Shown here: one piece after another, positions 3,783-28,288 of the stretch
How the letters are laid out: every line of letters begins with the position of its first letter
Position numbering within the stretch: position 1 is the stretch's first letter
DNA from: DATKZS01 sp035527835 [NCBI: bacterium]
GTDB taxonomy: Bacteria > RBG-13-61-14
Direction: 5' to 3'
NCBI GenBank assembly: GCA_035527835.1
Contig: DATKZS010000075.1
Location: 1-30,509 of the forward strand
DNA: 30,509 nt
Notes under the pieces: generated by a model
The model's input: the letters and a program-made list of their open reading frames with translations, nothing else
Told to the model about the DNA's origin: nothing
The model's database searches: none
Program-made: the position numbers and the translations under genes

Positions 3783-5414
3783 TCAGAGGCCGTCCGACCG
3801 CTTGATCATGGCGGACGCGCTCGGGAGCTCAATGCGCGGGCCGAGCACTTCCTTGATCAGGTCCGCGACCCTCAACAGATCCCCGTGCCTCAGCCATCCC
3901 AAATAGAACTCCGGCCCCAAATAGAAGTCCTGCAAGGGGCCCAGGTAAATGCGCGAATTGGAGATCGAGATCCCCCTGATGTCGTCTACGCTTATTTTCC
4001 TCTCTCGGCGGTAAGGCCACAGCGTCCCCTTTACGCTCACGCCGCCGGGTCCGGCGTCAATGATCTGCCGGTTAAAAAGCTCGAGGAAAATACGCCAGAC
4101 AATTACACTCTCCAACGCGAGGCAGCCCAGGAAAATCCCCAAATACACCCAGAATTCCCTGCCAATGGAATGGTCTTGCAGCAACGTGACCAGGGGCAGA
4201 GCCAGAAGCCATAGGAAGACCGATCCAACAAGGACAAGCCCGGCATAGCCCGTCACGGTCCGGGGCTGGCGGCGGGGCTCGGACTCGATCAACATCCTCT
4301 CCCCCTCGCGCCGCACCCTGATGCGCGAGTCGCCCTCCGGCTCGGCCCCGGTTTCCTCCGGGCCCAATGCCTTGCCCAGGCTCCACAGCAAAAAGACAAC
4401 GTCGTCGGGCTTGAGGTCCGCATCCTCTCCGAAGGTGATTGTCCGCCCACCGTAGTCAAACGCCAGCGCGTTCCTCGGGTCCAGCATGTTGATCAGCTCA
4501 GGAAAAAAAGGCACATCATCGGCCGAGGTCCATCTGGCGATCACCTCATCGGCGCTGATGCGCGTGCCCGAGGAACCGAAGGCGCGGAGGTTGCGCACCT
4601 GACTGATTTTGTACCTTTTCCGGGACCTCGGCATGGAGGGAACATACCTGATCGAAAGCCAGCCCGGACTCGTGCTCACCTCGAACCGGCGGCGTGTGTA
4701 GCGCCAGCCCTGTACCCAGCAGATGGCCGCGCCCAGGGCGCTGCCCGAGATCAGCGAGATGGTCAAGGCCCCGCGCGAAGCGGTGGTGATGAAAATGTAA
4801 ATAAACCCCGCCAACGTGGCCGTGAGACAAAACGCCGCGCCATACAACAGCAGGCTGGCGGGATCGCCCACTTCCGTCATGAAAACCCACCCTTCCGGCG
4901 TGGATTTAAAAATAACCCTGGAACCCTCGCCCAGGGAGGGGCCGCTCCCGATGAGCCCAAGCTCTTCCCGCCGCTTCCGCGAAAAAAAACGGATCTCATC
5001 GGCCACCGCCGCCGCCTCGAAAATTCCCTCCAGCACTTTCGGGCCCGAGGAAAAATGCACGATCACCGTGCCCGTGCCTTTGGATTGATCATTGCTGGAA
5101 TAGAAAACCTCTACTTTGCGCACCTCCTTCAGGGGCAGACTCCAGTCCTTGAGCCTCCGGTTGACCGCGGCCGAGAGTCGGTCATTGGTTAGACAATAGG
5201 TCCTGGGAGCGACGGCAATCAGGCCCATCACCGTGAAAACGCCAGCTATTACGTGGGCCGATAAATGCGCACCCGCACCGCCTCCCAAGATTGAGATCAT
5301 TGCCGCGAGCCCTAAGAAAAAAATCAGGTGGGCGGAGCGGCGCTGGCCCAGATTGATCCGATGCGCGCTCTTTTGCGACCAGACCGCCTCGCTTTTATTT
5401 CCCTTCGTAATCAT
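3783..5414 (-). CDS. Multi-pass membrane protein with three TM-pair + PH-like modules, function unknown
   Basis: This 543-residue protein looks like three repeats of one module: a hydrophobic helix pair followed by a soluble beta-rich segment. Helix pairs are at about 28-65, 180-230 and 390-440. Each is followed by a segment with the same logic: a short strand, a basic stretch, then a (K/I)-x-(S/V)-x-(I/V)-x-x-(I/V) strand. Examples are LTNDRLSAAVNRRLKDWSLP..EVRKVEV in module 1, GWLSIRYVPSMPRSRKRYKI..VRNLRAF in module 2 and GGVSVKGTLWPYRRERKI..IRGISI in module 3. This resembles bacterial PH-domain membrane proteins (YdbT/bPH_2 type), but I recognise it only by architecture. No catalytic motif is visible. 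ATG 5414 has no good Shine-Dalgarno site, so the true start is uncertain; the next Met is at residue 38. It is convergent with the sigma factor gene and separated from the radical SAM gene upstream by a 542-bp gap. Confidence 0.65.
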   Translation of the reverse strand: MITKGNKSEAVWSQKSAHRINLGQRRSAHLIFFLGLAAMISILGGGAGAHLSAHVIAGVFTVMGLIAVAPRTYCLTNDRLSAAVNRRLKDWSLPLKEVRKVEVFYSSNDQSKGTGTVIVHFSSGPKVLEGIFEAAAVADEIRFFSRKRREELGLIGSGPSLGEGSRVIFKSTPEGWVFMTEVGDPASLLLYGAAFCLTATLAGFIYIFITTASRGALTISLISGSALGAAICWVQGWRYTRRRFEVSTSPGWLSIRYVPSMPRSRKRYKISQVRNLRAFGSSGTRISADEVIARWTSADDVPFFPELINMLDPRNALAFDYGGRTITFGEDADLKPDDVVFLLWSLGKALGPEETGAEPEGDSRIRVRREGERMLIESEPRRQPRTVTGYAGLVLVGSVFLWLLALPLVTLLQDHSIGREFWVYLGIFLGCLALESVIVWRIFLELFNRQIIDAGPGGVSVKGTLWPYRRERKISVDDIRGISISNSRIYLGPLQDFYLGPEFYLGWLRHGDLLRVADLIKEVLGPRIELPSASAMIKRSDGL

Positions 5415-5680
5415 CGAACTGCATCAATTCTGCCGGCCCCGCCAGGGACGGCTGAGATTTTCCCTGTCCCGGAGGGACAAAGACCCCATGGCCCCTTTCT
5501 GCCGGACTCATTGTATAGACCTCATTTCATGAATGCAACTCAACATAACCGGTAAAAATTACATCCCGGGTGCGACCATTTTACTAATAATAGAGGGGGA
5601 TGATTTTGGCGATCAGGGAAGATGGTTCGGGGGCGGCGCTGCCATACGCACGCGCATTTCCCGTGTCCGATTTCGCGTTC

Positions 5681-5747
5681 GGACGGGCGAACGCGGGTGG
5701 CCTGGACGGGCGAACGCGGGTGGCCGGACGGGCGAACGCGAAATGGC
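5681..5747. repeat. Three-copy 22/23-bp tandem repeat with internal palindrome
   Basis: Units start at 5681, 5704 and 5726. Each begins GGACGGGCGAACGCG and ends GTGGCC or ATGGCC. The first unit is preceded by CGCGTTCG, an exact inverted match to the CGAACGCG inside each unit, so hairpins can form. The degenerate flanks (GTGTCC..TTCGCG on the left; GTCGTGTCCCGG and GGATCGGACGCGG on the right) look like older, decayed copies. Confidence 0.75.
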
Positions 5748-5931
5748 CGTCGTGTCCCGGGGGCGAGGACGCGCGGATCGGACGCGGAAAAGACAACTCC
5801 CGGTTTTCATTGGAAACAGGCCCGGCAAAGCCGGGAAATTTTTCGCCGGAGCGCGTCCGTGTCCTTATTTTCAGGCCAGCCACCGGCGCCTCGCTCACAA
5901 TCACCATGAGCTCGGGCGCCGTCAGAAGGGG

Positions 5932-5951
5932 CGCGGGTGCCCTCACCCGCG
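5932..5951. repeat. Copy 1 of the 20-bp coding-invading palindrome (intergenic)
   Basis: A perfect 8-bp stem CGCGGGTG with CACCCGCG around the loop CCCT, preceded by GGGG as in other copies. It starts 5 bases downstream of the radical SAM stop codon (TAA 5959-5957), so in the mRNA it would form a hairpin at the 3' end. Five more copies are inside larB (24074) and cheA (27271, 27451, 27652, 27694). Confidence 0.8.
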
Positions 5952-5956
5952 TACTC

Positions 5957-7396
5957 TTATCCTGCCTCCCTCCTCAGTATGTCCCAATACGCCCCGCGGG
6001 CGCCTTTCTTGATGGCTTGGCCCAGGGGGCGGTTGTTGTTGTAGTTGTAGTTAGCCGCGAGCTGTTTTCGGGAGGCGAAGAGGAAGATGGGGTCGTCGGA
6101 GATGAGGCTGGCAAGATATGTTTCGGGGTCGGGCCCGAGTTTTTCGGAGACGAAGAAGACGGGCTTGAGCAGCGCGTCGTTGTGGCGGACCGCGCCGTGG
6201 AGCGCGGGGTTCTGGTCCATGGGCCCGGCGGCGCTGACCATTGCGCCCAGCGCGGTCCCGGCAAAGACGCGGACGCCGAAGCTGACGCCCACGCGGTCCG
6301 GCCGGAGGCGTTTCATGCGCTTCACGGTCTGGGCCATGGTCTTTCCGGTCTCGCCGGGCCCGCCGATCAGGAGGTCGTACATGAAGACGATGCCGGCTTG
6401 GCGGCACGCCCGGGCGCAGGTCTCGAGGGCGTCGGGCCCGAACTCGCGGCCGAGCGCGTGGAGCATGGCCGCGCTGGCGGAGTCCACGCTGAAGTCAATG
6501 CCGGCGCACCCGGAAGCGGCCATGAGGCTGGCGAGGTCCGGGTCCATGGGATCGGGCAGGGCGTAGGTGTACCACTTGATCTTGCCGGAGAGGCCGGCCC
6601 GGATGATGGCTCGGCACACGGCCTCCGCGTGGCGGCGGGACAGGTTGAACTCCGGATCGCACAGGTGGATGGCGGATACGCCTTGCCTGGCGAGGCGCGC
6701 GATTTCCTCCGCCACGCTCTCCGGCTCGCGGAAGCGGATGCTCCGGCCCTTGGCCAACGGGTCCGCGCAGTAGATGCACTTCTTGTTGCAGCCGCGCTGG
6801 GTCTCGATATTGCCCTGGCCGCCCATCCGGAAGTAGCGGGGCAGGTCCAGCGTATCGCGGACCGGCGCGGCCACGTGTTTGAGAGCAATAGCGGCGGGCG
6901 GAGGGGCCTTCTCCCCGGGCCGGACCAGGCCTTCGATTCCATCGGGGGTCTTGCCGGCGGCGATCATCTCGCAGAGACGCGGGAACGATTCCTCGCCGTC
7001 GCCGGAGAGCCCGTAGTCCGCGCCCAGGTAGGCGAGCGTTGCCTCCGGCGCGATGGAGAAGCCGACGCCCCCGAGCACGACGGGCGCGTCGGTGGCCTCC
7101 TTGATCGCGCGCACGATGTTGCGCAGAGGCGGGAGCAGGAAGGCGCGGCTCGCGTAATAGCAGTCGTCGAGGTTGCGCACGGTGAGGCCGATGATGGATG
7201 GCCGGCTCTGTTCCACGGCCCTGCCCACCGCGGCGGCGCTATTCTCCCACGAGAGGTCGAGGATGGAGCAGGCGATGCCGCGGCGGCCCAGCGCCTCGGC
7301 CACCAGTTCGAGCCCGAGCGGCCCGACCGGCGGCTTCATGCGGTTTCCGTTGATGAGCAGGACCCGGGCCGCCCGCGATTTATTTGGTTCCATCAT
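5957..7396 (-). CDS. Radical SAM protein with N-terminal B12-binding-type domain
   Basis: This is a predicted cytoplasmic [4Fe-4S] radical enzyme of 479 residues. The N-terminal region (about 10-165) has the Rossmann-like cobalamin-binding fold pattern (RVLLINGN..PPVGPLGLELVAEAL; PSIIGLTVR; APVVLGGVGFSIAPEATLAYLGADYGLSGDGEE). It lacks the classical DxHxxG histidine, as is common in this class. The radical SAM core starts at about 195 with QRGCNKKCIYC, giving cluster ligands C203, C207 and C210 (CX3CX2C). It continues with an SAM-binding-like segment and IDFSVDSAS, then YDLLIGGPGET. The C-terminal part is unassigned and contains an Asn/Tyr-rich stretch (NYNYNNN). Start ATG 7396 has GAGG upstream. 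The substrate cannot be inferred from its neighbours, which are a hydrolase and a membrane protein separated by repeats. Confidence 0.88.
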   Translation of the reverse strand: MMEPNKSRAARVLLINGNRMKPPVGPLGLELVAEALGRRGIACSILDLSWENSAAAVGRAVEQSRPSIIGLTVRNLDDCYYASRAFLLPPLRNIVRAIKEATDAPVVLGGVGFSIAPEATLAYLGADYGLSGDGEESFPRLCEMIAAGKTPDGIEGLVRPGEKAPPPAAIALKHVAAPVRDTLDLPRYFRMGGQGNIETQRGCNKKCIYCADPLAKGRSIRFREPESVAEEIARLARQGVSAIHLCDPEFNLSRRHAEAVCRAIIRAGLSGKIKWYTYALPDPMDPDLASLMAASGCAGIDFSVDSASAAMLHALGREFGPDALETCARACRQAGIVFMYDLLIGGPGETGKTMAQTVKRMKRLRPDRVGVSFGVRVFAGTALGAMVSAAGPMDQNPALHGAVRHNDALLKPVFFVSEKLGPDPETYLASLISDDPIFLFASRKQLAANYNYNNNRPLGQAIKKGARGAYWDILRREAG

Positions 7397-7435
7397 CAGA
7401 TCAGCCTCAACTTATTTTAGACGACAAAAAGGAAA

Positions 7436-7514
7436 CCACGGATGAACACAGATTAACACGGATAAGATGGGACAGAGAAATAATTCATCCGTGTTCATCT
7501 GTGTTAATCTGTGG
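7436..7514. repeat. Long inverted repeat of ACACGGATG/ACACAGATT units
   Basis: The left arm (7436-7466) is CCACGGATGAACACAG followed by ATTAACACGGATAAG. The right arm (7483-7514) is its near reverse complement and ends TTAATCTGTGG. It lies between the stop of the hydrolase gene (7532) and the start of the radical SAM gene (7396), both on the - strand. It belongs to the same family as 1660-1885 and 17481-17546. Confidence 0.8.
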
Positions 7515-17432: not shown

Positions 17433-17480
17433 CCTTTCCTCCGCTCTGGATCATCTTGCTTAAAACCGACTTTTATTATA

Positions 17481-17546
17481 ACCACAGATGAACACGGATT
17501 AACACGGATATTTTTAATTTTTTCTTAATCGGTGTTCATCCGTGGT
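17481..17546. repeat. Long inverted repeat of ACACGGATT units
   Basis: The left arm (17481-17510) is ACCACAGATGAACACGG then ATTAACACGGATA. The right arm (17527-17546) is ATCGGTGTTCATCCGTGGT, with an AT-rich loop of T and A runs. It lies between the stop of the giant kinase and the start of the PilB-like gene, and is the third copy of the family at 1660-1885 and 7436-7514. Confidence 0.78.
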
Positions 17547-22482: not shown

Positions 22483-23657
22483 CACCTTTTCCCCGTTCTC
22501 CGTCCCGGGAGGGCGTCCATGACCGCCTTCTCCACCGTTTCGAGGGTCACGCCCGCTTTCCGGGCCGCCTTCTTTACCTGGTCGTATTCGGGATGTACTC
22601 GGGTCGCGCCGTCGGGCCGCGTGGCCAGCTTGGCGGCGATGGCTCCGAAGGGGGTCTTTGCCACCACGCTTCGGCGGGGCAGGACTTGGCGCGTGACCTC
22701 GTGGAGACGGACGCCCAGGGTGGTGGAGTGGTTGAAGAGCGCGGCAATGACGGCCTCCCTCGATGGGGCGGCGGCGAGGGCGCGGACCAGGGTCCCGGGC
22801 CGGTTCTTTTTCATCTGGGCGGGGATAAAGAGGACCTCGATGGCGCCGGCCTCATGGAGCTTGTCCATGAGGAATTCGAAGCGCTCGGCGGGCATGTCGT
22901 CAATCGCGGCCTCGATCTGGAACACGGGTCCGCCCTCGCCGGCGGTCCGGCCGACGACCAGGCGCATGATGTTGGGCCGGCCGGGGATTTCGCGGTCTCC
23001 GAGCCCGGAGCCGATCTTCTCGATGATCATCGCGGGCATGGGCCCGAAGGATGACGAGAGGGTGACGGCGAGGGCGGCGCCGGTGGGGGTGACCATCTCG
23101 GTCTCGACGGCGACGCCGCGCACCGGCACACCCTTGAGCAGCTCCATGACGGCGGGCGCGGGCAGGGGCAGGGTGCCGTGGGCGCATTGCACCTCGCCGT
23201 AATTCACGGGGAGCGGCGAGCAGGCGATGGTCTCGATGGCCAGGCGTTCGAGCCCGGCCACGCATCCGACCACGTCCACGATGGCGTCCACGGCGCCGAC
23301 CTCGTGGAAGTGCACCTCATCGGGGGCGATACGGTGGACCCTGGCCTCAGCCGCCGCGAGTCTCGTAAAGACCTTGATGCTGTTTTCCCGGACGCGGGCG
23401 GAGAGCTTGCTGGACTGGATCATCTTGATGATATGGCCGAGGCGGCGCGCGGGCTGGCCCTCTCTCTTGTAAGCGACGCGGACGTGCTTGCCGCCGAGGC
23501 GCGCGCGCGTGTCGTCCTTGATAATGAGGCGGAATTCGGGGACCACGCTTTTCACCTGGGCCTTGAGCCAGCGCGGGTCCACGCCGGCGTCGAGCACGGC
23601 CCCCAGGAGCATGTTGCCGGAGATGCCGGCGAAGCAGTCGAGCCAGGCCGCGCGCAT
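22482..23657 (-). CDS. larC: Nickel-pincer cofactor biosynthesis protein LarC
   Basis: This 391-residue protein is of the family that inserts nickel, in a CTP-dependent step, into the dithio-carboxylated pyridinium mononucleotide to finish the nickel-pincer nucleotide. Family hallmarks are the start LDCFAGISGNMLLGAVLDAG (residues 6-25), DEVHFHEVGAVDAIVDVVG and the following ACSPLPVNYGEVQCAHGTLP, TPTGAALAVTL and ETNIDD-like EAAIDDMPAERFEFLMDKL segments. In Lactobacillus the gene is split as larC1/larC2 joined by ribosomal frameshifting; here the whole protein is one uninterrupted frame. Its start overlaps the larB stop and its stop overlaps the kinase start (both TGATG), which predicts translational coupling of all three. 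Confidence 0.94.
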
Positions 23658-24460
23658 CAGCGCTCCCCCGCCGCTCTCAGGATGCGGGCGGCGGCGCAGG
23701 CCGCGCCGAAGCCGTTGTCAATGTTGGTGACCATGACGCCGGAGGCGCAGGAATTGAGCATGCCGAGCAGAGCCGCGATTCCTCCGGCCCCGGCGCCGTA
23801 GCCCACTGACACCGGGACGCCGATCACCGGCTTGTCCACCAGTCCGCCCACCACGCTGGCCAGCGCGCCCTCCATGCCCGCCACCACGATGATCACCCGC
23901 GCCCGCTCGATCTCTTCATGGTGCGCGAGCAGGCGGTGGATGCCGGCCACGCCCACGTCGGTAATGACCACCGGCCTAAGGCCCAGCCACAGGAGCGTCT
24001 CGCGGATCTCCTCCACCACCGGCGAGTCCGCGGTCCCGCCGCTCACGACCGCCACCGGGCCGCCGGAAGATGCGCGGGTGAGGGCACCCGCGCCCCTTCC
24101 CGCGCCCCTTCGCACGCCAGGCCGCGCGCCCGGCACGCGCAGGGTGCGGCCGCGGCGGTTATGGCGGGCGCGCGGAAAGGCCTTCTTCACGGCCCGGGCC
24201 TGCTCCTCGGAAACGCGGGTGACCAGGGCCTCGGACTGGGACGCCGTCATTTCCTTGAGGATGGAGATGATGTCGGCGGCGGTCTTGCCCGGGGCGAAGA
24301 TGACCTCGCCCATGCCCTGGCGCAGGGCGCGGTGGTGGTCCACCTTGGTGTGTCCCAGGTCGGCGAAGGGGAGCTTCTTCAGGACCTTCATGGCCTCGGC
24401 TTCCGACACCTTGCCTTGGCGGATGCCGCGGACCAGATCTTTTAAGGTCTTTTCATTCAT
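23657..24460 (-). CDS. larB: Nickel-pincer cofactor biosynthesis protein LarB
   Basis: This 267-residue protein makes the first step of the nickel-pincer pathway, carboxylating nicotinic acid adenine dinucleotide and releasing AMP to give pyridinium biscarboxylate mononucleotide. The N-terminal region (1-95) has the family pattern KLPFADLGHTKVDHHRALRQGMGEVIFAPGKT. The C-terminal PurE-like domain begins at PVAVVSGGTADSPVVEEI and contains VGVAGIHRLL, VVAGMEGALASVVGG and VIGVPVSVGYGAGAGG. The linker between the domains is expanded and contains the residues GRGAGALTRAS, encoded by a 20-bp palindrome that also occurs elsewhere (24074-24093). GGAGG lies 11 bases before ATG 24460. LarE and a LarA-type enzyme are not in the window. 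Confidence 0.94.
   Translation of the reverse strand: MNEKTLKDLVRGIRQGKVSEAEAMKVLKKLPFADLGHTKVDHHRALRQGMGEVIFAPGKTAADIISILKEMTASQSEALVTRVSEEQARAVKKAFPRARHNRRGRTLRVPGARPGVRRGAGRGAGALTRASSGGPVAVVSGGTADSPVVEEIRETLLWLGLRPVVITDVGVAGIHRLLAHHEEIERARVIIVVAGMEGALASVVGGLVDKPVIGVPVSVGYGAGAGGIAALLGMLNSCASGVMVTNIDNGFGAACAAARILRAAGER
24074..24112. repeat. Copy 2 of the 20-bp palindrome inside larB, plus 12-bp tandem duplication
   Basis: CGCGGGTGAGGGCACCCGCG at 24074-24093 is a perfect 8-bp stem with loop AGGG. Next to it CCGCGCCCCTTC occurs twice in tandem (24089-24100 and 24101-24112). Together they encode the glycine/alanine/arginine-rich linker of LarB. The coding frame differs from that of the copies in cheA. 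Confidence 0.85.
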
Positions 24461-25701: not shown

Positions 25702-28128
25702 CTATAAGAGTCCCATGGTGTCGAGGACAAAGACCACGCGGCCGTCGCCCAGCATGGTGACGCCGGAGAGGCCGCTGATTTTTTCGAGGGGCTTTCCGAG
25801 CGGGCGGATGAATGCCTCCTCCTGTCCGATGAGCTCGTCCACGATGAGGGCGGTCTTTTTCTTGTTGAGCTCCACGATCAGGGCGGGCCACGGCCCGCGT
25901 CCTCCGTCCTCGGGCTCGGGCAGGTCGAGGAAGCGGTGGAGCGGCTTCAAGGGGACCAGCTCCTGGCGTTCGAGGTAGAACTTCTGGCCCTGGCTGCGCC
26001 GGATCTGGTGGGGCAGGATCTCGACGTTCTTGAGGATCTTGGCGATGGGCAGGGCAAAGGTCTCCTTGCCGATGCGGATGAGGAGGACATTGACGACGGC
26101 GATGGTGCGGGGCAGGTGGAGGGTGAAGGTGGTGCCGAGCCCGATGGCGGTTGACACGGTGACGTATCCGCCGACTCCCTCGACCACGTTCTTGACCGCG
26201 TCCATGCCCACGCCCCGGCCCGAGACCATGCCCACGGACCTGGCGGTGGAGAAGCCGGGCGCGAAGATCAACTGGTAGGCGTCTTCATCCGCCATGGCAT
26301 CGGCGGCCTCCGGGGTGAGCATGCCCTTGTGCACCGCGCTTTCCTTGAGCATGAACGGGTCCATGCCGCGGCCGTCGTCGCGGACCTCGATCAGGACCAG
26401 GTCGCGCAGCCGATAGGCCTCGATCTCGATGCCGCCCTCCGGCGGCTTGCCCAGCCGGGCGCGCTCGTCGGGCGGCTCGATGCCGTGGCCCACGCAGTTG
26501 CGCAAGAGATGGATCAGCGGGTCGGCGAGCTGTTCGAGGATGGCGCGGTCGAGCTCGATGTCCTGGCCCTTGACGGTGAAGCGGACCTGCTTGCCCTCGT
26601 CCTTGGCCAGGTCGCGGACCACTCGGGGCAGCCGGGCCACCACGCTCTCCAGCGGCATCATGCGGATGCTCATGACCTGGTCGTGGAAATCGCGGACCAG
26701 CGACTCCAGCCGGTCCAGGCCGGCCTCCAGCGCCGGGATCGGGTGCTTCTTCGCCACCTCCCGGAGCTCGCTCTTTACCAGGATCATCTCACCCAGCGCA
26801 TTGATGAAGCGGTCCAGCGCCTGGGTCTTCACCCGCACGGTCTGGGGCAGGCCCGGGGCCTGGGCGAACGGGTCGTAGGGGGCTTCGGGCCTGACGGGTT
26901 CCCGGGCCGCGCCTTCCCGCGGCAGCGCCTCCACCGCGGGCTCCGGCGCCGCGGGCCGCTGCTCCAGGCTTTTCAACTCGAAGCTCTGGATGTCCGCCAT
27001 CGAGTTCATGATCTTGACGACCTCGTCGTCCTCCGTCTCCGCGATGAAGTCAATCTCCACCGCCAGGCCCTTGGCGTCGGCCAGGAAATTTCCGCTTTTC
27101 ACGTCCTCCAGCGGCGGCCGCGACTCGACGATCTCGCCGGCCTCCCCGAGGCGCTTGAACAGTATGAGCCCCCGCACTCCCGGGGAAGCGGTTTGCGGAG
27201 AGAAGATCACGCGCACGGTCTTGTTCGGGACCCGGCCGGCCGCATCGGCCCGCGGGGGCGCCGGCGCCGGCGCGGGTGAGGGCGCCCGCGCCCCATTGGC
27301 CGGCGATGGAGATGGCGTCCACGCGCCAGTGGCGGGCGCGGGTGGGGGCGGGCGCGGAAGCTCGAAGTCGATGGGGAGCGAGGAGGCGTCGGTCCGGGGC
27401 GCCGGCGCGACCGCGGCGGAGGCGGTCGTTGCGCGGGCGTCGGGAGCGGACGCGGGTGAGGGCACCCGCGCCCCCTTGTTTGCTCCGGCCCCCGGCCCGG
27501 CTACGGGCTTGGGAGCGGAGCGGGGCTTGAAGTCAAATACGATCTCGCCGTCCATGTCGAGCACGGGCTCGGAGCGCGGCTTTGTTGGCTTGGCCGCAGC
27601 CCCGCTCTCGGGTTGTTGCGGGGCGGGCGCGGCCGGCGCGGGTGCGGCTGGCGCGGGTGAGGGCACCCGCTCCCCTTTGTCCGGCGGGGTCGGCGTGGGT
27701 GAGGGCGCAGGCGCCCCCTCGGCGGGCGTTGCGGCGAGGACGGGCCTGTCCTGGGCGTGGAAGTTCCTGATGCGGCTGGTGAGGTCCACGGAGGCTGGGG
27801 AGAACTCGCGGTCGTTGGCCACGTCCTGGAGCAGGCTCTCCAGGGTATCCATGCCCTTGAAGAGGAGGTCCATGGCCACGGGGTCCGGCTCGCGCAGTCC
27901 CTCCCTGATGTCGTCCATCAGGTCTTCCATGGCGTGGGAGAGGTCGCGGATGGCTTCGTAGCCCATGCTCGCGGCCATGCCCTTGATGGAGTGGGCGTTT
28001 CTGAAGACCTCGGCGATGGCGTCCTTGTCCGCGCGGTCCTGCTCGATCTTGACCAGTCCCTGGTTCATGGACTGGAGGTGTTCCGCAGTCTCGGAGACGA
28101 ACATCGCTTTGTATTTGGTCATGTCCAT
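25702..28128 (-). CDS. cheA: Chemotaxis histidine kinase CheA
   Basis: CheA is the kinase core of the chemosensory array and phosphorylates CheY. It has 808 residues. The HPt domain has the phospho-acceptor in NAHSIKGMAASMGY (H46). A very Ala/Pro/Ser-rich linker follows (about 115-290) and carries four copies of a palindromic DNA repeat, read as GARVPSPA-type octapeptides. A CheY-binding-like P2 domain (TVRVIFSPQTASPGVRGLIL.., about 293-385) comes next, then P3 dimerisation (about 425-485, ending near RDFHDQVMSIRMMPLE), P4 ATPase with N-box HLLRNCVGHGIE (about 540), G1 DDGRGMD and G2 GRGVGMDAVK, and P5 CheW-like (about 665-808). The start ATG 28128 has no clear ribosome-binding site and is preceded by the hairpin repeat 28144-28288. 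CheC begins 9 bases downstream. Confidence 0.95.
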   Translation of the reverse strand: MDMTKYKAMFVSETAEHLQSMNQGLVKIEQDRADKDAIAEVFRNAHSIKGMAASMGYEAIRDLSHAMEDLMDDIREGLREPDPVAMDLLFKGMDTLESLLQDVANDREFSPASVDLTSRIRNFHAQDRPVLAATPAEGAPAPSPTPTPPDKGERVPSPAPAAPAPAAPAPQQPESGAAAKPTKPRSEPVLDMDGEIVFDFKPRSAPKPVAGPGAGANKGARVPSPASAPDARATTASAAVAPAPRTDASSLPIDFELPRPPPPAPATGAWTPSPSPANGARAPSPAPAPAPPRADAAGRVPNKTVRVIFSPQTASPGVRGLILFKRLGEAGEIVESRPPLEDVKSGNFLADAKGLAVEIDFIAETEDDEVVKIMNSMADIQSFELKSLEQRPAAPEPAVEALPREGAAREPVRPEAPYDPFAQAPGLPQTVRVKTQALDRFINALGEMILVKSELREVAKKHPIPALEAGLDRLESLVRDFHDQVMSIRMMPLESVVARLPRVVRDLAKDEGKQVRFTVKGQDIELDRAILEQLADPLIHLLRNCVGHGIEPPDERARLGKPPEGGIEIEAYRLRDLVLIEVRDDGRGMDPFMLKESAVHKGMLTPEAADAMADEDAYQLIFAPGFSTARSVGMVSGRGVGMDAVKNVVEGVGGYVTVSTAIGLGTTFTLHLPRTIAVVNVLLIRIGKETFALPIAKILKNVEILPHQIRRSQGQKFYLERQELVPLKPLHRFLDLPEPEDGGRGPWPALIVELNKKKTALIVDELIGQEEAFIRPLGKPLEKISGLSGVTMLGDGRVVFVLDTMGLL
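27271..27290. repeat. Copy 3 of the 20-bp palindrome (in cheA linker)
   Basis: CGCGGGTGAGGGCGCCCGCG: the stem has one G-T wobble in place of the A-T pair. Followed by CCCC, as in other copies. Encodes GARAPSPA in CheA. Confidence 0.75.
27451..27470. repeat. Copy 4 of the 20-bp palindrome (in cheA linker)
   Basis: CGCGGGTGAGGGCACCCGCG, identical to the larB copy, with CCCCCTT after it. Encodes GARVPSPA in CheA, in a different frame from larB. Confidence 0.85.
27652..27671. repeat. Copy 5 of the 20-bp palindrome (in cheA linker)
   Basis: CGCGGGTGAGGGCACCCGCT differs from the perfect form only in the last base. Followed by CCCCTTT. Encodes GERVPSPA. Confidence 0.8.
27694..27713. repeat. Copy 6 of the 20-bp palindrome (degenerate, in cheA linker)
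   Basis: CGTGGGTGAGGGCGCAGGCG keeps the loop and half of the stem, followed by CCCCC. Encodes GAPAPSPT. It lies 22 bases from copy 5, so the pair may reflect a local duplication. Confidence 0.6.
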
Positions 28129-28143
28129 GGTCGGGCCCGGGAA

Positions 28144-28288
28144 ATTAAAAGTGATGAATTATGAATGATGAATGATGAAGGATGACTCAAGTAATGGGAG
28201 GGAAGATCCTTCCATGGAGAGCGGGCGGAGTTTTCACCCGTTAGTGTTCATGTTTTTTTCATCATTCATAATTCATCATTCATAATTA
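28144..28288. repeat. Long inverted repeat of GATGAAT units between cheY and cheA
   Basis: The left arm (28144-28185) consists of GTGATGAATTATGAATG and further ATGATGAA units. The right arm (28253-28288) is TTTTTTTCATCATTCAT then AATTCATCATTCATAATTA, its reverse complement over most of its length. The arms enclose a GC-richer loop of about 65 bases. The right arm begins directly at the cheY stop codon. The element interrupts an otherwise tight chemotaxis operon, just before cheA. Confidence 0.82.

Follow-up and report, generated by a model that had tools for sequence, protein, structure and literature searches.

A REP element with a GGGG head in larB and cheA of an uncultured deltaproteobacterial lineage is most likely moved by a RAYT transposase

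The stretch of DNA analysed here, referred to as the window, is 30,509 nt long and carries larB (23657-24460, minus strand) and cheA (25702-28128, minus strand). The LarB protein has 267 amino acids with an AIRC domain at residues 136-263 (Pfam AIRC, 6.1e-16) and matches the solved pyridinium-3,5-biscarboxylic acid mononucleotide synthase 8soq at 1.9e-53. CheA has 808 amino acids and carries the Pfam domains Hpt (residues 7-104), P2 (residues 305-386), H-kinase_dim, HATPase_c and CheW. A 20-nt palindrome, CGCGGGTGAGGGCACCCGCG, is present as exact copies at 5932-5951 (minus strand), 24073-24092 (plus strand) and 27451-27470 (plus strand), and with one mismatch at 27271-27290 and 27652-27671. 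A preliminary description of this DNA had reported that the palindrome recurs in larB, in cheA and between genes. This was confirmed: the window holds five matches at up to three mismatches, far above shuffled sequence, where the mean was 0.03 and the largest count 1. The coordinates given there for the copies at 5932 and 27451 were right, whereas the larB copy, placed at 24074-24093, was off by one.

On the strand of the genes, the element reads AAGGGG-CGCGGGTG-CCCT-CACCCGCG, which is a head followed by a hairpin. The CCCC that follows the palindrome is the GGGG head seen on the opposite strand. The element agrees with the short hairpin rule given in PMC6006769 (stem of 7-20 bp, loop of 2-5 nt). 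As single-stranded DNA, the three exact copies fold with z-scores of -3.8 to -4.1, the 27652 copy folds at about -3.6, and the 27271 copy folds weakly at about -1.3. The sequence, which the preliminary description did not recognise, is a REP sequence of the RAYT/TnpA-REP system. No Rfam family was matched at gathering scores.

The intergenic copy (5926-5951, plus strand; exact 20-mer; profile score 40.1) has a DNA hairpin of -11.5 kcal/mol (z -3.82) with the GGGG head at 5928-5931, and lies five bases beyond the stop codon of a radical-SAM gene (5957-7396, minus strand). The other four good copies in the window lie within genes. In larB, the copy at 24073-24098 (minus strand; exact 20-mer; profile score 41.4; z -4.02) is read as RGAGALTRA at about residue 123, in the linker before the AIR-carboxylase-like domain. 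Directly 5′ of it, a truncated second copy (AAGGGGCGCGGG) was read from the sequence at 24099-24110 (minus strand). The copies in cheA, all on the minus strand, fall at about residues 140-290, between Hpt and P2. They are read as GARAPSPA (27271-27296; one mismatch; profile score 33.6; z -1.28), GARVPSPA (27451-27476; exact 20-mer; profile score 35.9; z -4.14) and GERVPSPA (27652-27677; one mismatch; profile score 38.0; z -3.58). A further cheA copy is read as GAPAPSPTP (27692-27718, minus strand). By eye it differs from the 20-mer at 4 of 20 positions (at 27694), and its stem and fold are lost (z -0.72). Its score with a 27-position profile is 13.3, above the best of 20 shuffles (9.1), and it is therefore a decayed REP copy. 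Accordingly, two of the positions previously listed as close variants, 27271 and 27652, hold with one mismatch each, whereas 27694 is the decayed copy. The earlier readings GAGALTRA in LarB and GARVPSPA in CheA are right, as is the statement that five of the six frames lack a stop codon. Two of the CheA copies and the 5932 copy have about a dozen upstream bases in common. Some copies may thus have arisen by duplication of another copy and not by an insertion of their own, or the element here may extend further.

Other repeats were observed in the window. A second dispersed repeat, AACCACGGATGAACACAGATTAACACGGATA, occurs at 7434-7464, 17480-17510, 1650-1680 and 1801-1831 in direct and inverted orientation, seemingly between genes. 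Just upstream of cheA, at 28143-28287, there are inverted arms of the ATTCATCATTCATAATTCATC type, 26-31 nt long and spaced by 62-85 nt. The long intergenic stretch before the 5932 copy carries tandem GGACGGGCGAACGCGGGTGGCC-like units at about 5680-5745.

To follow the element across genomes, the contigs of 84,980 species genomes were scanned with the extended form GGGGMGCGGGTGCCCTCACCCGC, which yielded 11 stretches. Ten of these lie in the metagenome-assembled genome (MAG) Deltaproteobacteria bacterium RBG_13_61_14 (G001; 4.7 Mb), which is a relative and not the window's own genome. The remaining one lies in an Acidobacteria gp1 MAG (G002). An 18-nt core was found in G001 26 times exactly, 55 times at up to one mismatch and 74 times at up to two mismatches, counts that include some sites twice, once per strand. 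As a control, the reversed pattern gave 0 and 2 matches at up to one and two mismatches, so that the genome-wide count in this relative is well above the control. In G003 and G004, two other members of G001's class, the core gave no match at up to one mismatch, and viral contigs gave no match to the 23-mer. In G002 (Acidobacteria gp1 AA150; e.g. L012-L040), 21 exact copies of the core were observed, mostly with a CACGTAGGG 5′ flank, that is, a canonical GTAG head (all but one or two of the 15 loci displayed). On one contig of this genome, a RAYT-like match with one stop codon lies about 50 bases from a REP copy. The core that is common to G002, with its GTAG head, may reflect descent, transfer or convergence.

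The stem positions are paired in 74-77 of 77 copies, and these positions lie within the search core. The foot pair -1/18 lies outside the core and is nevertheless paired in 70 of 77 copies (48 C-G, 18 T-A, 3 A-T and 1 other; two loci are counted on both strands and kinship of the copies is uncorrected). None of 2000 shuffles reached 70, with a mean of 51.8. The head was surveyed in 766 kb of G001, where 362 perfect hairpins were found and the tetranucleotides at their feet counted. GTAG was the most enriched (28 seen, 1.3 expected, 21-fold). GGGG ranked second by excess, with an enrichment that is modest beside GTAG (17 seen, 3.7 expected, 4.6-fold), followed by GGTT, AAAA and AGGG and, in sixth place, GTGG (11 seen, 3.8 expected); copies of one family make these counts non-independent. 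The head is GGGG in the window subtype, one base off the canonical GT[AG]G, and GTGG in a sister subtype. Since both GTAG and GGGG/GTGG are enriched at the hairpin feet, G001 has canonical GTAG REPs besides the G[GT]GG family. Further REP families with a GTAG head, distinct from this one and with stems that include GGGCGCGATTTATCGCGCCC and GGGCGCGGCTTGCCGCGCCC, were observed on G001 contigs C81, C53, C82, C125, C130, C63 and C66. A CGTC head was not found: most copies carry G[GT]GG, with no CGTC on the other side.

The insertions in the host genes were examined by comparison with orthologues. Across the GAGALTRA stretch of the window's LarB, the LarB proteins of G001, G003 and G004 show a gap of 13 residues plus one more, and the solved LarB chains 8soq and 7mj0 likewise lack the inserted segment. 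The linker peptide is thus absent from the three relatives and the two solved chains; the insertion is deduced from orthologues at 45-57% identity and not from close strain pairs. The CheA linkers of G001, G003 and G004 contain no REP peptide and are much shorter than that of the window, a comparison in which the G001 CheA is split over two frames with unknown residues past the linker. Window and G001 are 57% identical in LarB and 67% identical in CheA over residues 415-808, and larB and cheA are close together in G001 too. The plasmid collection gave no near match to the larB-cheA DNA. The earlier interpretation is supported: the DNA and not the protein is conserved, the element is repeated across the genome of the relative, copies stand in frame in genes, and orthologues lack the insert. 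Both tests by which the preliminary description could have been refuted, the copy count and the LarB comparison, spoke for it.

In G001, the position of the copies relative to genes was assessed with gene calls that came throughout from our own codon-usage script. The sample comprised 766 kb on seven large contigs, all known to carry copies, three of them partial, picked irrespective of gene position. Within it, 20 of 24 copies lie between called genes at a coding density of 0.854. The other four lie inside called genes, two of them near a protein end. Copies in genes are depleted in this sample, as expected if most gene insertions are lost. An earlier figure of 33 of 78 copies inside genes (window included), obtained with a first, loose gene caller, was rejected as inflated. 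A strict test, in which coding signal had to be present in one frame on both sides of the copy, flagged 18 of 76 copies: 2 of the 5 in the window and 16 of the 71 in G001. Two of the G001 loci (L063 and L092) were rejected as antisense shadows of a stronger coding signal on the other strand, leaving 14 of 71 in frame inside genes. Of the four good copies that lie in genes of the window, this test recovers just two, and it therefore errs low in Pro/Ala-rich linkers.

The hosts of these 14 copies have a Pfam match over the cut-off in seven cases, a match below it in two and none in five. Among them are alanyl-tRNA synthetase (tRNA-synt_2c, 3.4e-196), KdtA, an O-antigen ligase, a TonB-like protein, a TPR protein, an Eco57I-type methylase and GrpE. 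The G001 AlaRS contains a 21-residue stretch with LGARVPSPA that is absent from the solved AlaRS 9jc7. For KdtA, a weaker alignment with 2xci has a gap of 10 residues where the REP peptide lies. The gaps exceed the 8-9 residues that a REP encodes, with 13-14 amino acids in LarB and 21 in AlaRS, the exact ends being unfixed. Ten of the 14 copies are on the same strand as the gene and four on the opposite strand, a number too small for a claim about orientation. The ten same-strand copies are read seven times in a frame close to GARVPSPA, twice close to GAGALTR and once as GCPHPH. In this third frame, the 5′ flank that is usual in G001, CTTTAGGGG, supplies a TAG, which may be the reason why the frame is rare.

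These data bear on the idea that the repeats are convergent, low-complexity, GC-rich coding sequence that specifies Ala/Pro/Gly linkers, with no inserted DNA element. Several in-gene copies are indeed surrounded by Pro/Ala-rich sequence, and in CheA the whole linker is of this composition. However, one and the same 20-mer is translated in different frames and occurs between genes as well, the 55 copies in G001 compare with none in the reversed control, and a stem pair outside the search core covaries. In addition, the copies in AlaRS, KdtA and a His-rich membrane protein (weak DsbD_2 match) are at sites that are not Pro/Ala-rich. We regard convergence of this kind as extremely improbable.

A regulatory role was considered as well. 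A DNA or RNA hairpin acting as terminator, mRNA stabiliser or protein binding site might be selected at gene ends and reach the interior of genes via gene conversion or duplication. With 20 of 24 copies between called genes in the 766-kb sample, many of them near 3′ ends, and with the stem pairing maintained, the G001 data are partly in line with such a role. The context of the copies in G001 is unidirectional in 13 cases, convergent in 5, divergent in 1 and inside genes in 4, and the distance to a gene 3′ end is below 20 bp in 10 of 23, a distribution that resembles that of published REPs. On the other hand, a terminator scan of window positions 5000-6500 left the 5932 copy unmarked, copies stand in mid-gene, and RAYT genes are flanked by matching subtypes of the hairpin. 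Regulation as the full explanation therefore seems improbable to us, and a role at gene ends and mobility could be compatible.

A search of G001 for PF01797 (IS200-like Y1 transposase) gave 19 matches, and a search of this genome with one of these matches added two further places (C63 and C103). Four RAYT genes among these loci are tied to REP hairpins, three of them by copies at both flanks. RAYT-A (C130:43673-44161) lies between two hairpins in inverted orientation, one headed by GTGG and the other by GTGA. RAYT-B (C130:61889-62491) is flanked on both sides by exact GGGG-headed copies of the window type in inverted orientation, so that for the window subtype a RAYT gene between inverted copies of the same REP is present at this locus. 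Its 3′ flanking copy is read into the end of the open reading frame, and two more copies with a broken stem lie upstream. The RAYT-B frame itself contains one full and two truncated REP copies between the HVH and Y motifs. RAYT-C (C63:15754-16308) has the sister stems GCGCCTG and GCGGCTG both at its flanks and, in frame, within the gene. A RAYT at the end of contig C71 is 90% identical to RAYT-A; the hairpin that comes after it has a GTGG head and a loop of 3 nt. At 18 of the 21 RAYT-like loci in G001, a number that includes the C71 locus with its shorter loop, none of the three stems was found at up to three mismatches; matches occurred only at RAYT-A, RAYT-B and RAYT-C.

The best solved match of RAYT-A is E. 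coli TnpA-REP (4er8, 3.9e-8), with HVH, WQ, R and Y---NP in register. These positions and the class-2 motif are given in PMC6006769. RAYT-A reads DHVH, IWQ and YLLQNP, and the motifs of class 2 RAYT/TnpA-REP proteins (HUH, W and Y---NP) are thus present. Just upstream of RAYT-B, in L071 at 2133-2240 (G001:C130:62532-62640), a tandem array is built from a 43-bp unit that carries a truncated REP stem, and the array ends in one intact REP. Many Y1 transposases of G001 have open frames of about 320-330 amino acids and occur beside the short RAYTs; those that were checked have no flanking REP of the window kind.

The window genes tested with Pfam include no RAYT. This, together with the in-frame copies in unrelated genes, would suit a family of protein-invading palindromes of the RPE type known from Rickettsia, with no relation to RAYTs. 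Such a family is hardly credible here: hairpins and RAYTs are paired in G001, and RPE-4 and RPE-6 are grouped with the CGTC REPs in PMC3733652, whereas the head of the present family is G[GT]GG.

Taken together, we consider it about 90% probable that the palindrome is a REP, most likely moved via single-stranded DNA by a cognate RAYT, whose in-frame insertions survive in linkers and loops. The REP is a non-autonomous element of about 26 nt. Its hairpin has a stem of 8-9 bp (7 bp and one or two further pairs at the foot) and a loop of 4 nt, and the tetranucleotide next to the hairpin foot, GGGG or, in the sister subtype, GTGG, forms the head. Copying and insertion most likely proceed through single-stranded DNA by the HUH/Y1 transposase RAYT (TnpA-REP). 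In G001, RAYT paralogues have different REP subtypes at their flanks: inverted GTGG/GTGA hairpins at one gene, inverted GGGG hairpins at another and the sister stems GCGGCTG/GCGCCTG at a third. The architecture of the loci suggests that the RAYT moves the REP, and the window's own genome presumably has such a RAYT as well. Insertions in coding sequence would survive if the frame is kept and a linker or loop is struck, and the two readings met most often give Gly/Ala/Pro-rich peptides. These peptides are probably tolerated rather than useful. A bolder version holds that, in this lineage, REPs have repeatedly supplied ready-made disordered linkers by inserting into genes, that the CheA linker between Hpt and P2 was built largely by successive insertions and decay, that the (L)GARVPSPA orientation and frame (7 of 10 same-strand in-gene copies) is favoured, and that the hairpin is in the course of domestication as a protein spacer. 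This seems doubtful to us.

Our findings add an uncultured deltaproteobacterial lineage to the hosts in which RAYT-linked REPs enter proteins. Within a single genome, G001, different RAYT paralogues are accompanied by different subtypes of the hairpin, and one transposase gene has its own REP inserted in frame. LarB, CheA and AlaRS are well-studied proteins and provide concrete cases for measuring what a translated REP does to them. Translated inserts of this kind can also pass for lineage-specific protein features.

A literature search, whose scope was other than subscription papers and supplements, found no description of this sequence family. Among the titles and abstract starts listed for RAYT and Deltaproteobacteria, none was about REPs. 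The MAG name RBG_13_61_14 returned no paper, and the combination of REPIN, RAYT and intragenic returned only PMC3733652. As far as these searches go, the REP family itself, the GGGG head, the host lineage and the particular genes hit are new. REPs inside genes, the link to RPE-4/RPE-6 and REPs inside RAYT genes are already published, and there is precedent for every part of this case.

The Rickettsia repeats, to which the preliminary description compared the palindrome, belong to an AT-rich host. The comparison was apt: intragenic repeats of R. conorii correspond to RPE-4/RPE-6, and these small palindromes, translated in unrelated proteins, are placed among the REPs in PMC3733652. They differ from the present family in their CGTC head and in belonging to a superfamily that the survey in PMC3733652 lists as without association to a transposase gene. 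A close likeness is to the intragenic REPs described by Di Nocera et al. 2013 (PMC3733652), where whole REPs, sometimes several per gene, lie within ORFs of Opitutus terrae, Thauera, Xanthomonas and others, and where linkers and loops are suggested to tolerate them. In that paper, genes for DNA synthesis and repair are stressed and tRNA synthetases are also named, whereas the genes hit here are larB and cheA and, in G001, alaS, kdtA and grpE. Nunvar 2010 (PMC2817692) described inverted REPs that flank RAYTs and coevolve with these, and GTAG-type REPs with RAYT/TnpA-REP transposases are covered in PMC2817692, PMC3116915 and PMC6006769. Compared with these GTAG-type REPs, the present family carries the head GGGG, or GTGG in the sister subtype, and resides in an uncultured deltaproteobacterial lineage.
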